64,000 bases of DNA from Pseudomonas sp. DC1.2. GTDB lineage: Bacteria; Pseudomonadota; Gammaproteobacteria; Pseudomonadales; Pseudomonadaceae. The stretch covers positions 2,423,001-2,487,000 of the forward strand of contig NZ_CP133782.1 in the NCBI RefSeq assembly GCF_034351645.1. Direction: 5' to 3'. Position numbers and translations under genes: made by a program. The notes beneath the pieces were generated by a model. The model saw nothing but the letters and a program-made list of their open reading frames with translations. It was not told the origin of the DNA and made no database searches. Positions 4,130-47,584 of this stretch are shown one piece after another (within the stretch, counting starts at the first letter, position 1; each line of letters opens with the position of its first letter).

Positions 4130-5056
4130 ATGATCAATCAACTACCGCCTCTTAATGCTGTTCGCGCCTTCGCGGTGGCTGCTCGTCATCAGAGCTTCAG
4201 CCTGGCTGCCGAAGAGCTGCATGTCAGTCACAGCGCCGTCAGCCGGCACATCAAACTGCTTGAAGAACATTTGGGCATATTGCTGTTCGAGCGGCGCATC
4301 CGCCAATCGGTGTTGACGCCGACGGGCCAACGCTTTTATGAGCAGGTCAGTGCCGGGCTGTCACAAATCGCCAACGCCGCAACTGCGCTCAAGCAGCATG
4401 CCTCGCTACCGACGGTGACGATCAATGTGCGCCCGTCCTTCGCTATGCTTTGGCTGGCGCCCAGGCTGGCGGATTTCATTGCACAGCACCCGGATATCAA
4501 ACCGCAGGTCATCACTCAAACCCAGGCACCTGACCACGCGCGCGACCGATTCGACATCGTCATTCGCCGCGGTCGTGACGACTGGGCGCCGCAGATTGAG
4601 GCGCGAGCACTCTTCGAAGACGAACTGCTGCTGGTAGCCGCGCCATCGTTGATCGAACGCGTGGCCTTGCAGGAGCTGACGTCTGTGAGTTGGCACACGT
4701 TACTGACCGCCAAGGCCCGTCGCGAGGATTGGCACAATTGGGCTATGCACTTTGGTCAAAGCCAGTCAGCCACGCAACTCACCCGGCAGTTCGATCACAT
4801 GCACCTGGTGCTTCAGGCGGCCGTGGATGGGCAGGGGATAGCCTTGTGCCCAACCTCGTTGCTGGGCACCCACCTCTCGAGTGGACGCCTGATCTGCCCG
4901 TTGCCTGAGTTGCGGATGCCGTTGCCGCGCTATTACTTCGGGGTCGCGCCGCAGGTGACGGCGCCCACGCAAGTGTTTGTCGAGTGGTTGTTTGCCCGGA
5001 TTGCCGACGATGCGCTGTGTTGGCAAGCGCCGTGTACAGCCAGCGCTATACCCTGA
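4130..5056 (+). CDS. LysR-type transcriptional regulator
   Basis: A 308-residue LysR protein. The N-terminal helix-turn-helix (residues 5-65) reads LNAVRAFAVAARHQSFSLAA and SHSAVSRHIKLLEEHLG, typical of the GcvA-like branch. The remainder is the periplasmic-binding-like effector domain. It diverges from the LysE exporter and probably regulates it in response to an amino acid; this is inferred from position only. Its 3' end overlaps the convergent membrane-protein gene by 11 bases. Confidence 0.9.
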   Translation: MINQLPPLNAVRAFAVAARHQSFSLAAEELHVSHSAVSRHIKLLEEHLGILLFERRIRQSVLTPTGQRFYEQVSAGLSQIANAATALKQHASLPTVTINVRPSFAMLWLAPRLADFIAQHPDIKPQVITQTQAPDHARDRFDIVIRRGRDDWAPQIEARALFEDELLLVAAPSLIERVALQELTSVSWHTLLTAKARREDWHNWAMHFGQSQSATQLTRQFDHMHLVLQAAVDGQGIALCPTSLLGTHLSSGRLICPLPELRMPLPRYYFGVAPQVTAPTQVFVEWLFARIADDALCWQAPCTASAIP

Positions 5057-5387
5057 AATCCCAGACTATTTCCACTACTCGAACCGCCAGTACCAGGTAA
5101 ATCAGAAACAGAATAATTTGGAAGACCGTGTGATAGCGCAACCTCGACAGCCGTCGTACTCCATCGCTGACATTGAGCAGCATCAGCAGCGCCGACACTG
5201 CAATCAGTCCCCAACCGGTAAGATTCGAGCCGAGCATACCCAGGAACATAAGATGGTCGCTGTGCAACGCGTTGGTCCCAGCCGCCAGTAGCAGGGCGCA
5301 AACCAGCAAGTTTTTGATGTTGTCGAACACTTGCGTGGTGAAGTCGGTATCCAGCAGCACCAGGTATTTTTGCCAGAGTTTACCCAT
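5046..5387 (-). CDS. small membrane protein, unrecognised
   Basis: A 113-residue protein starting MGKLWQKYLVLLDTDFTTQV. It has three hydrophobic stretches: LLVCALLLAAG, LIAVSALLMLLN and the C-terminal IILFLIYLVLAVRVVEI, so it should sit in the inner membrane. I do not recognise a functional family. It diverges from the SOS-box promoter of the radical-SAM module and converges on the LysR gene. The ATG at 5387 is chosen because the longer frame runs through the LexA box and promoter of the neighbouring operon. Confidence 0.7.
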   Translation of the reverse strand: MGKLWQKYLVLLDTDFTTQVFDNIKNLLVCALLLAAGTNALHSDHLMFLGMLGSNLTGWGLIAVSALLMLLNVSDGVRRLSRLRYHTVFQIILFLIYLVLAVRVVEIVWDFRV

Positions 5388-5497
5388 TGTGTTCGAAGCC
5401 TTTGGAGGGGGCGGAAGTGGCGACAGTGTTGCAGGGTTCCGGATCAAATGCACAACGCACCGACTTGATTTGACCCGACGAGGGGCGTGCGGGTGGG

Positions 5498-5526
5498 TTG
5501 TGCATCGCGGGCTGACCCTATACTGT
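5498..5526 (+). promoter_or_regulatory. candidate sigma-70 promoter of the radical-SAM module
   Basis: TTGTGC at 5498-5503 and TACTGT at 5521-5526 are separated by 17 bases. They fit a moderate sigma-70 promoter reading towards the gene at 5554. The -10 hexamer lies inside the LexA box, which is how LexA normally blocks transcription. Confidence 0.55.
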
Positions 5527-5540
5527 ATGAATGAACAGTA
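5521..5540. promoter_or_regulatory. LexA (SOS) box
   Basis: The 20-base sequence TACTGTATGAATGAACAGTA matches the gamma-proteobacterial LexA operator: CTGT, eight bases, ACAG, with the outer TA on both sides. It ends 13 bases before the ATG of the radical-SAM gene and overlaps the predicted -10. The pair of genes downstream should therefore be induced by DNA damage. Confidence 0.9.
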
Positions 5541-5553
5541 TAAGGCGTGCCCA

Positions 5554-6774
5554 ATGGAACTCATCGACAAGCTCAGCATTCTCGCCGACGCCGCCAAGTA
5601 CGACGCGTCTTGTGCCAGCAGCGGCGCGCCCAAGCGCAGCTCAGAAGGCAAGAGCGGTTTGGGTTCCACCGATGGCATGGGCATTTGCCACAGCTACACG
5701 CCGGACGGCCGTTGCGTGTCACTGCTGAAAATCCTGCTGACCAACTTCTGCCTCTACGACTGCCAGTATTGCGTTAATCGCCGTTCCAGCGATGTGCCAC
5801 GGGCGCGGTTCACGCCCGAAGAAGTGGTCATGCTGACCATGGATTTCTACCGACGTAATTGCGTCAGTGGCTTGTTTCTCAGCTCCGGGATCATTCGCTC
5901 GGCAGACTACACGATGGAGCAGCTCATTCGTGTGGCCAAACTGCTGCGCGAAGAGCATGAGTTTCGCGGCTACATTCATCTCAAGACCATTCCTGAAGCC
6001 GACCCGGCGCTGATCGCGGAGGCAGGGCGCTATGCCGACCGCTTGAGCGTGAATATCGAATTACCTACCGATGCCAGTTTGCAAATCCTTGCCCCGGAAA
6101 AACAACTGGGTTCGATCAAACAGGCGATGCAGACCATCTACACCGGCGAGCAAACGGTGCTCAACGAACCCCGGGCGCCGAAGTTCGCTCCGGCCGGGCA
6201 GAGCACGCAGATGATTGTCGGCGCTGATGACACCGACGACAGCACCATCCTTCATAGTGCGCAGGCGTTGTATGGCAACTACCGCCTGCGCCGGGTCTAT
6301 TACTCGGCATTCAGTCCGATCCCCGACAGTCCGAAGAGCGTGCCACTTGCGGCGCCTCCACTGATGCGTGAGCACCGGTTGTATCAGGCCGACTTTTTGC
6401 TGCGCAGCTACGGGTTCACCGCGGGCGAGCTGTTCAAAGGACCGGGGCATCTGGCCCTGGACATCGACCCCAAACTGGCGTGGGCCCTGGAAAACCGCGA
6501 AGTTTTTCCGCTGGATCTCAATCGGGCCGACGCGTCGTTGATCGCTCGTATCCCTGGAATCGGCCTGCGCACCACCGAGCGGCTGGTGGAACTGCGCCGT
6601 CTGCGGCGCATTCGTTATGAAGACCTGGCGCGGATGCGCTGTGTGTTGGCCAAGGCCAAGCCGTTTTTCATCACCAGCGATTACCACCCGCAGCAGGCCG
6701 AGGTCACCAGCCACTTGCTATACCAGCAACTGCGCGACCGGCCTCAGCCGCAGCAAATGGGGCTGTGGGGATGA
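5554..6774 (+). CDS. putative DNA modification/repair radical SAM protein
   Basis: A 406-residue radical-SAM protein. The cluster-binding motif is CLYDCQYC (CX3CX2C) near residue 68, in the context LLTNFCLYDCQYCVNRRSSD. A further TDGMGICHSYTPDGRC segment near residues 40-55 adds two cysteines. The C-terminus carries a helix-hairpin-helix, LIARIPGIGLRTTERLVELR, which in other proteins binds DNA. This layout fits the family annotated as putative DNA modification/repair radical SAM protein (TIGR03916). The ATG at 5554 is used; an ATG at 5527 lies inside the LexA box, and the frame open to 5173 precedes the promoter. Its stop overlaps the next gene by four bases. The reaction is unknown. Confidence 0.88.
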   Translation: MELIDKLSILADAAKYDASCASSGAPKRSSEGKSGLGSTDGMGICHSYTPDGRCVSLLKILLTNFCLYDCQYCVNRRSSDVPRARFTPEEVVMLTMDFYRRNCVSGLFLSSGIIRSADYTMEQLIRVAKLLREEHEFRGYIHLKTIPEADPALIAEAGRYADRLSVNIELPTDASLQILAPEKQLGSIKQAMQTIYTGEQTVLNEPRAPKFAPAGQSTQMIVGADDTDDSTILHSAQALYGNYRLRRVYYSAFSPIPDSPKSVPLAAPPLMREHRLYQADFLLRSYGFTAGELFKGPGHLALDIDPKLAWALENREVFPLDLNRADASLIARIPGIGLRTTERLVELRRLRRIRYEDLARMRCVLAKAKPFFITSDYHPQQAEVTSHLLYQQLRDRPQPQQMGLWG

Positions 6775-7616
6775 TCAATCTGGATTGCGACGATTTGTTC
6801 GAAACATGGCGCCAGCAAGCCCGTTGGTTGCTGAGCCATGAGGTCGACCCAAGTCTGGTGAGTTGGGCCTCAGAGGGCGTTGAAGACCTGTTCGCCAGTG
6901 ACGCGGCCCCGCCTGCCGAGTCAGGTCCATTTCAGGCGCGAATTCCGGCAGCGTTGTTGGGGACGCTCGAAAACGCCGCTCGTTATCGCGGTGATCAACG
7001 CTGGAGCCTGTTGTACGAGGTGCTGTGGCGGGTCAGCCATGGGGATCGAACCGCGATGATGGCGGGCGATAAACTCGGCAGCGAATTGCAGCGGCGCATC
7101 AAACAGGTCCAGCGTGAAGCTCATCACCTGCATGCGTTCGTGCGTTTCGTTGAGCGGCCGCTCAGCGATGCAGGCCCCCAATATGTCGCCTGGTACGAAC
7201 CAGCCCACGACATTCTGCTCAACGCCAGTGAGCATTTTATCGGCCGCATGGGGCGGCACCGCTGGCTCATTGCGACGCCGCGAGACGGGGTTTATTACGA
7301 CGGCGAACACTTGGTGCATCAGCGCCAATGCCCGGTTGAGTGGCAACAACTGGCGCAAAATGTTGACGACCCGCATGGCAACATGTGGCTGACCTACTAC
7401 AGCCATATCTTTAATCCGGCGCGATTAAACCCGAAAGTCATGCAAGGGCATTTGCCCGCGCGGTTCTGGAAAAACCTGCCTGAGGGTGCGTTGATTCCGG
7501 GGTTGATCACCCAGGCGCGCACAGGCAAGCAGCAGGACGGTCAGGCCAGCGGGATCAAGGAAAGAGCAGGTAAGCGCATTGCGCCGGGACAAAGCGAGCG
7601 TGGACATGGCTCATAA
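6771..7616 (+). CDS. TIGR03915-type (DUF4130) putative DNA repair protein
   Basis: A 281-residue protein coupled to the radical-SAM gene by an ATGA overlap. Features I recognise are WRVSHGDR, the FVRFVERP core, WYEPAHDILL, a second EHFIGRMGRHRW segment and the C-terminal MQGHLPARFWKNLPEG. They match the partner family (TIGR03915, DUF4130) that accompanies the radical-SAM protein and in other bacteria is fused to a UdgX-type uracil-DNA glycosylase domain. No glycosylase domain is attached here. The last 40 residues are Lys/Arg/Gln-rich and may contact nucleic acid. Under the LexA box with its partner. Confidence 0.82.
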   Translation: MINLDCDDLFETWRQQARWLLSHEVDPSLVSWASEGVEDLFASDAAPPAESGPFQARIPAALLGTLENAARYRGDQRWSLLYEVLWRVSHGDRTAMMAGDKLGSELQRRIKQVQREAHHLHAFVRFVERPLSDAGPQYVAWYEPAHDILLNASEHFIGRMGRHRWLIATPRDGVYYDGEHLVHQRQCPVEWQQLAQNVDDPHGNMWLTYYSHIFNPARLNPKVMQGHLPARFWKNLPEGALIPGLITQARTGKQQDGQASGIKERAGKRIAPGQSERGHGS

Positions 7617-7617
7617 A

Positions 7618-7654
7618 AAAGCCGCGCATGACCAAGGCAATGCGCGGCTGTTTT
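7618..7654. terminator. bidirectional rho-independent terminator
   Basis: Ten-base stem AGCCGCGCAT (7620-7629) pairs with ATGCGCGGCT (7640-7649). TTTT follows on the plus strand and a run of six T on the minus strand, so it can end both the repair module and ilvE. Confidence 0.85.
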
Positions 7655-47254: not shown

Positions 47255-47584
47255 TTACTCTGTCACGATGATGCTGCCATCCGCCTGCTGCCGATAGAGG
47301 GTGTAGGGCAACAGCAGGGTGTCGAATGCTCCGGAAATAACCACGTCGATCAACACAAAGATAGTGCCGTTGTTGTACTTCTCAGGATCGATGCCTGCCT
47401 TCAGAGGCGCATGCAGCGTGCAAAAATCATAGGTCACGCCGCTATAGATTCGTGGAACCGCAGCGCAGTAACTTTTCTTCTCCTTGAGGCTTTTCACTGC
47501 GACGTCATCGTTGCGCACCACTGTCTGTACGGTGCCACAGCCGGCTAGCATCAGTGCCGCCAACAACATTGCCTGAGTTTTCAT
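47255..47584 (-). CDS. YceK/YidQ-family lipoprotein
   Basis: A 109-residue lipoprotein: the leader MKTQAMLLAALMLAGCGTVQ has the lipobox LAGC. YCAAVPRIYSGVTYDFCTLH and DTLLLPYTLYRQQADGS are the family signatures (YceK/YidQ, DUF1375). Function unknown; outer-membrane location likely. ATG at 47584 keeps the leader intact. Confidence 0.85.
   Translation of the reverse strand: MKTQAMLLAALMLAGCGTVQTVVRNDDVAVKSLKEKKSYCAAVPRIYSGVTYDFCTLHAPLKAGIDPEKYNNGTIFVLIDVVISGAFDTLLLPYTLYRQQADGSIIVTE

Follow-up and report, generated by a model that had tools for sequence, protein, structure and literature searches.

A LexA-type operator kept upstream of a radical-SAM and DUF4130 gene pair in Pseudomonas, with a clamp-binding-like tail and an optional UdgX domain

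A 64,000-nt stretch of the Pseudomonas sp. DC1.2 genome (contig NZ_CP133782.1, positions 2,423,001 to 2,487,000; hereafter the window) carries a near-consensus SOS box directly ahead of a gene for a radical S-adenosylmethionine (SAM) protein, which in turn overlaps a gene for a DUF4130 protein. Does this arrangement mark a damage-induced system acting on DNA, and what might such a system do? A preliminary description had proposed direct LexA control, tight pairing of the two genes and a role in nucleic-acid repair. Conservation of the operator and the pair supports all three points, and the overall interpretation is borne out in part. The host genome is a single contig of 5.82 Mb, in which a profile search gives exactly one match to the radical-SAM family TIGR03916.

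The operator in Pseudomonas and beyond

The box had been described as TACTGT-N8-ACAGTA lying 13 nt before the radical-SAM gene, and both its form and its distance to the ATG at 5554 are correct by sequence (Table 1). The accompanying claim of an overlapping -10 element held in part: TATACT does overlap the box, although scanning for consensus elements detected no sigma-70 promoter. CTGTN8ACAG occurs twice in the window against 0.84 expected, with at least two matches in 22 of 100 shuffles; because such a count is not significant by itself, the case for the box depends on conservation. The window contains no match to an idealised 20-base SOS consensus, even with three mismatches allowed, and the second CTGTN8ACAG match (47525-47540), inside a 118-aa open reading frame (ORF), was taken as chance. 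Genome-wide, CTGTATN6ACAG gave 9+9 strand matches at 16 places, compared with 1+0 for the reversed control. One of these places precedes lexA, whose scanned portion scores 182.1 bits against TIGR00498; another precedes a gene weakly matching YebG (35 bits, cut-off 161). Host lexA has its own box, CTGTATAAAAAGACAG, upstream (G000:C1:2073204-2073219, L037).

Conservation was assessed at 91 Pseudomonas loci from 149 gene-bearing genomes (the DC1.2 locus, the 30 best-scoring and 60 hand-picked), of which 90 were counted after exclusion of L123, which has no anchor. CTGN10CAG starts at -46 to -22 in 89 of the 90, compared with 1.7% of random windows from the same loci, a background that may itself contain true boxes. 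CTGTN8ACAG lies within 150 nt upstream in 58, with 8 matches in 308,902 other bases of those loci, and 12 named Pseudomonas loci have the exact box in 7 cases and a relaxed form in all 12; Pseudomonas species being related, these counts are not independent. The survey of SOS boxes upstream of Pseudomonas TIGR03916 genes suggested in the preliminary description thus reveals a conserved site. Because it is kept at the same position in 89 of 90 loci, the box upstream of the radical-SAM gene is well supported as real and beyond chance, and an operator retained at the promoter in orthologues points to membership of the LexA regulon. Cirz and others in 2006 reportedly listed PA0069 among LexA-regulated genes of Pseudomonas aeruginosa, and we suspect that PA0069 may be the radical-SAM gene. 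No paper in the open-licence literature linked PA0069 to LexA, the name serving as a strain label in the available portion of PMC7485682, and P. aeruginosa was not named among the best 120 of 8,000 protein matches to a Pseudomonas relative.

Beyond the genus, a draw of 398 genomes across the phylum yielded 84 over the TIGR03916 cut-off; 54 loci came from outside the class, and 49 of these (presumed alphaproteobacteria) were analysed. In all 49, GAACN7GAAC or GTTCN7GTTC stands no more than 150 nt from the start; elsewhere in the 69 loci scanned, 268,902 bases contain 5 such matches. Named alphaproteobacteria carry this box in 43 of 48 loci (a forty-ninth had too little upstream DNA), the five without it being L213, L217, L220, L245 and L254. 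CTGTN8ACAG is found at 14 of the 20 other gamma- and betaproteobacterial loci of the draw (all except L138, L139-L141, L143 and L157) and at 9 of 13 named ones, or 11 of 13 in relaxed form. Operator type therefore appears to change with lineage, and damage control looks both real and old.

The boxless loci are of more than one kind. In the source genome of L157 (G271), the LexA profile matches only positions 83-202 (62.8 bits), which suits a lineage without LexA and so fits the missing box. Acinetobacter is described as lacking LexA in the accessible part of PMC3978071, and the Acinetobacter pair (L260) has none of the tested boxes. LexA loss does not serve for the remaining boxless loci: G391 and three xanthomonad-like genomes have LexA over the cut-off, and G551 has a match of 99.6 bits, under it. 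Loci L139, L140 and L141, which are xanthomonad-like and without a known LexA box, share a palindrome resembling GGTCTCATCCAATGAGACC, located some tens of nt ahead of the start, that may be the site of another regulator. No site common to the lexA and radical-SAM upstream regions was found in xanthomonad-like genomes, a weak negative given that the comparison placed the lexA starts incorrectly. Tested boxes were also unmatched upstream at the named xanthomonad loci L200, L223 and L235, at three Verrucomicrobia loci and at L263 (Bacteroidetes-like by eye). Two Clostridia-like contigs come from faecal samples: L261 bears a pair of GAACN4GTTC boxes, and L262 shows a single relaxed match.

The radical-SAM protein and its C-terminal tail

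Assignment of the first gene to the radical-SAM proteins proved sound: its product scores well over the curated TIGR03916 cut-off, and the cluster cysteines Cys66, Cys70 and Cys73 are present in 236 of 236 family sequences. Three cysteines outside the CxxxCxxC motif (Cys20, Cys45 and Cys54) are likewise invariant in all 236 and probably hold a second, auxiliary cluster; residues 32-44 and 46-54 of the structural model fall under a predicted local distance difference test score (pLDDT) of 50. Lipoyl synthase, too, places three additional cysteines ahead of its cluster motif, for an auxiliary cluster, in a spacing that we take to be unlike the one seen here.

The best fold neighbours listed for the model are lipoyl synthase, HydE, MqnE and biotin synthase, with a lipoyl-synthase-like predicted fold spanning residues 1-284, and the fold matches also include viperin, MiaB and RlmN. 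Spore photoproduct lyase (SplB) is not among the neighbours listed, an absence that proves nothing. An NCBIfam scan at E <=1 returned 11 matches without an SplB family, although whether the library contains an SplB model was unchecked; neither MiaB nor RlmN matched as a family, and the only lipoyl-synthase family to appear was LipS1 (E 0.092, 12.3 bits against a cut-off of 230). The protein shares a predicted barrel fold and the CxxxCxxC motif with lipoyl synthase, biotin synthase and HydE but scores far under the cut-off of each such family, and adds a putative C-terminal helix-hairpin-helix (HhH) and a tail motif. The HhH noted in the preliminary description stays under the Pfam cut-off; weak matches of the family profile to the HhH proteins ComEA and RuvA (E 0.009 to 0.09) and a model that is helical at this segment speak for it.

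The protein ends in QMGLW-G. We surveyed the tails of 236 distinct family members (239 sequences) with a strict pattern, Q[LM]x[LM][FLWI] in which the third residue is restricted, and found it within the last 22 residues in 200, with a looser form in 32 more. The four without either form are L205, L232, L240 and a Pseudomonas row with an apparently frame-changed tail. The strict pattern matches only twice in 91,591 body residues, and shuffled tails contain it in 2.76 of 236 on average. Q401 is kept in 235 of 236 and L404 in 222, and the residues just before vary. Commonest are QMGLW (60) and QMALW (34) in Pseudomonas, followed by QLSLF (31) and QLELF (18); Massilia and relatives also end the motif in W, other betaproteobacteria in F, and Clostridia-like family proteins end in QLSLF and QLSFF. 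In the available text of PMC12309361 the clamp-binding consensus reads QL[S/D]LF or QxxLF, and PolC carries QLSLF at its C-terminus. QMGLW fits this consensus at Q and L and replaces F by W; the strict family pattern allows F, L, I or W at position 5. The host MutS carries QSDMF. The C-terminus seems to carry a sliding-clamp-binding-like pentapeptide, and the terms 'clamp-binding motif' and 'radical SAM' co-occur nowhere in the open-licence literature searched.

The DUF4130 partner and the optional UdgX domain

The second gene is, as previously described, a member of TIGR03915/DUF4130, scoring above both cut-offs. Residues 1-198 of its model show a weak overall-fold likeness, of modest Z, to the DHH/DHHA1 proteins RecJ and Cdc45 in the VIA-align list of neighbours. 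This likeness has no sequence support: the DHH tripeptide is absent from the protein and from the conserved columns of the family alignment, none of 47 DUF4130 members matches Pfam DHH/DHHA1 at E <=10, and hhalign gives a probability of 0.07% against RecJ, that is, no profile similarity. Across the 47 sequences, 22 positions are invariant, many of them aromatic or charged (for example W206, Y209, Y210, N215 and R218), as might be expected of a surface used for binding or catalysis.

TIGR03916 and TIGR03915 each occur in 149 of 199 Pseudomonas genomes, in lists that agree by eye, and in 90 of 90 Pseudomonas loci no more than 10 nt separate the radical-SAM stop from the start of the partner. Caulobacter, used as a control genome, also matches both families. 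In the phylum draw, TIGR03915 was found on the same contig, about 3.1 kb or less downstream, in all 8 genomes checked (5 where the ORF scan had met another next gene and 3 for comparison). The translational coupling claimed earlier would follow from the ATGA overlap, which is present as described. Matches are few on mobile elements, with 10 of 50,697 phage records and 158 of 72,556 plasmid records, 142 of the 158 typed non-mobilizable. Three matching faecal 'Bacteriophage sp.' records that we opened were all marked UNVERIFIED, and one relative lies on a viral contig (L259). With so few matches and phage records so doubtful, a mobile origin was set aside, and we read the gene as mainly cellular, on large replicons in some hosts. 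The 240-kb record of L260 (CAKLQH020000003.1), titled 'Acinetobacter phage MD-2021a', carries glyS and glyQ besides the gene pair and looks like bacterial chromosome.

The partner family had been said to be fused elsewhere to UdgX, a uracil-DNA crosslinking protein, and TIGR03914 profile scans confirmed this, with full fused partners at L080, L150 and L206 (202.5, 259 and 313.5 bits). Fusions occur in alphaproteobacteria, betaproteobacteria and some Pseudomonas, and GEQPG lies downstream in 56 of 80 named loci; among the other 24 are some that a contig end truncates. UdgX is absent from the host partner, which matches TIGR03915 only (E <=1), and the host genome has no TIGR03914 match. Among the 90 Pseudomonas partners, G[EA]QPG is present in 3 (L025, L080, L082) and missing from 3 long ones (L009, L015, L023); the remaining 84 are short. 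Profile scans covered four of them: L080 exceeds the TIGR03914 cut-off of 189.95, and L023 (162.1 bits), L015 (109.8) and L009 (90.0) fall below it. No KRRIH-like loop was found in L025, L080 and L082, which keep GEQPG; this loop holds the crosslinking histidine of UdgX, according to the accessible part of PMC10359453. On a tree of 99 radical-SAM rows, labels of full, decayed or absent UdgX (L023 counted as full by its GDQPG) need 5 changes, compared with a shuffled mean of 10.7. Within Pseudomonas, then, the UdgX domain appears intact, decaying or gone while the radical-SAM gene, DUF4130 and LexA-type box stay, and this persistence argues for a core of radical-SAM protein plus DUF4130.

Table 1. 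Features of the locus, in window coordinates
Feature	Position	Strand	Evidence
Plausible -10 element, TATACT	5519..5524	+	Sequence; overlaps SOS box
LexA-type SOS box, TACTGTATGAATGAACAGTA	5521..5540 (core 5523-5538 = CTGTATGAATGAACAG)	.	Sequence and conservation across Pseudomonas loci
Radical-SAM gene, 406 aa, TIGR03916 (rSAM_link_UDG)	5554..6774	+	535.9 bits vs cut-off 343.5; PF04055; model pLDDT 86.6
Cys20 codon, first of three extra invariant cysteines	5611..5613	+	Kept in 236/236 sequences
Cys45 codon, invariant	5686..5688	+	Kept in 236/236 sequences
Cys54 codon, invariant	5713..5715	+	Kept in 236/236 sequences
CxxxCxxC radical-SAM cluster motif, Cys66/Cys70/Cys73	5749..5772	+	Kept in 236/236 sequences
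Putative C-terminal HhH segment, residues 320-349	6511..6600	+	PF12836, 19.5 bits (cut-off 27)
QMGLW codons, residues 401-405, sliding-clamp-binding-like pentapeptide	6754..6768	+	Family conservation; consensus from available text of PMC12309361
ATGA overlap between both genes	6771..6774	+	Sequence; translational coupling presumed
TIGR03915/DUF4130 gene, 281 aa, without UdgX domain	6771..7616	+	199.7 bits (cut-off 112.25) and 124.3 bits (cut-off 27); model pLDDT 86.1
Perfect 10-bp inverted repeat, 10-nt loop, then GTTTTGCG; possible terminator of the pair	7620..7649	+	Sequence reading

The inverted repeat after the pair was not listed by the scan that was also used for promoters, its 10-nt loop lying outside the limit of that scan. 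On the minus strand at 5046-5388, a divergent 113-aa membrane-like protein with no Pfam match at E <=0.01 faces the operon.

Possible roles of the pair

We take COG4277 to be the TIGR03916 radical-SAM family and COG1573 to denote the UdgX part when fused. In the excerpts available, published work predicts that a COG1573-COG4277 operon is under SOS control in Bacteroidetes, citing reports for Verrucomicrobia and Alphaproteobacteria (PMC8565304), proposes that LexA controls CAC3343-CAC3344 in Clostridium acetobutylicum (PMC3828012), describes a set of DUF4130, SplB-like radical SAM and uracil-DNA glycosylase (PMC3765255), and mentions a gene of the same name raised in Acinetobacter at 8% humidity (PMC13130816). 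SOS control of the family is already published for other phyla and hence is not new. COG4277-type modules of relatives have the same gene order and overlap as the host pair, together with SOS control proposed in those excerpts; where COG1573 is fused they differ from the host pair, whose partner lacks UdgX and ends in a short tail. Beyond the published SOS link lie the clamp-like tail, the extra invariant cysteines and the UdgX loss, prior reports of the latter two not having been specifically searched. The preliminary description took the reaction to be undescribed; in agreement, searches of the open-licence literature listed no paper on it.

With belief evenly balanced, we propose that the radical-SAM protein is induced through LexA, docks on the clamp and, together with DUF4130, repairs or modifies DNA where replication takes place. 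The two genes would form a LexA-repressed operon opened by DNA damage. The first would encode an enzyme of the lipoyl-synthase/HydE/biotin-synthase structural group, with Cys66, Cys70 and Cys73 as its SAM-cleaving [4Fe-4S] site and the other three cysteines probably at the auxiliary cluster; its HhH segment would contact DNA and its C-terminal pentapeptide would dock on the sliding clamp. DUF4130 would be a constant partner and perhaps a DNA-binding protein whose DHH/DHHA1-like fold has degenerated, in the manner of Cdc45. By 5'-deoxyadenosyl-radical chemistry, the pair may process a damaged or modified DNA nucleotide where replication occurs, and the UdgX domain, where present, could be an optional reader or crosslinker at uracil. 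Two observations weigh against this proposal. The tryptophan at position 5 of the Pseudomonas tails is the weak point of the clamp-motif reading, and on viral contig L259 the next ORF after the radical-SAM gene encodes a different protein, which speaks against constant pairing. We regard a more specific version as less likely than not: a new class of DNA repair in which a two-cluster radical-SAM enzyme, LexA-induced and delivered by the clamp to replicated DNA, works with a Cdc45-like, catalytically dead DHH protein and reverses or rewrites a lesion by radical chemistry new to DNA, UdgX being a mere add-on.

The pair could instead be a vegetative, SOS-induced photoproduct lyase that directly reverses an ultraviolet photoproduct or similar pyrimidine lesion as SplB does, with DUF4130 finding or flipping the lesion. 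The SOS operator and HhH would fit, and likeness to SplB extends to the radical-SAM class, a proposed DNA repair role and an SOS link in the portions of print available. We nonetheless think this unlikely in view of the three extra invariant cysteines, the lack of an SplB family among the NCBIfam matches, and best listed fold neighbours of the lipoyl synthase and HydE kind, where absence from the list is not proof. A base- or nucleotide-modifying enzyme, inserting sulphur for example, might tag DNA for a mutasome or protect it rather than repair lesions; a cysteine spacing unlike that of lipoyl synthase and the very low LipS1 score make this rather improbable. Its attractions are the lipoyl-synthase-like predicted fold, the three extra cysteines and a tail whose motif kind is also used by DNA polymerases (PMC12309361, available text).

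A uracil or abasic-site pathway would have UdgX mark or crosslink at uracil, leaving the radical-SAM enzyme to deal with the marked base or undo the crosslink. In its favour, UdgX fusion is common, with GEQPG downstream at most named loci and the three TIGR03914 scores of the full forms scanned. It sits poorly with a host genome that has no TIGR03914 match, with 84 of 90 Pseudomonas partners short and lacking G[EA]QPG and 3 more under the cut-off while pair and box stay, and with the loop not found in the GEQPG-keeping partners, and we regard it as improbable. An antiviral or an RNA- or small-molecule-directed enzyme, viperin-like or tRNA-acting, under SOS control is very improbable: viperin, MiaB and RlmN are among the fold matches, but tail motif and HhH point to DNA, and anti-phage defence was set aside for lack of any PADLOC match at E <=0.01.

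To our knowledge, very few radical-SAM enzymes act on DNA. If our proposal of a clamp-docked enzyme is true, a widespread LexA-controlled radical-SAM protein with a clamp-docking tag would constitute a replication-coupled radical repair enzyme. Natural loss of UdgX, taken with the tail and cysteines, bears on the unsettled biological role of UdgX. Together, these three features define a testable, UdgX-independent, replication-linked radical-SAM module.
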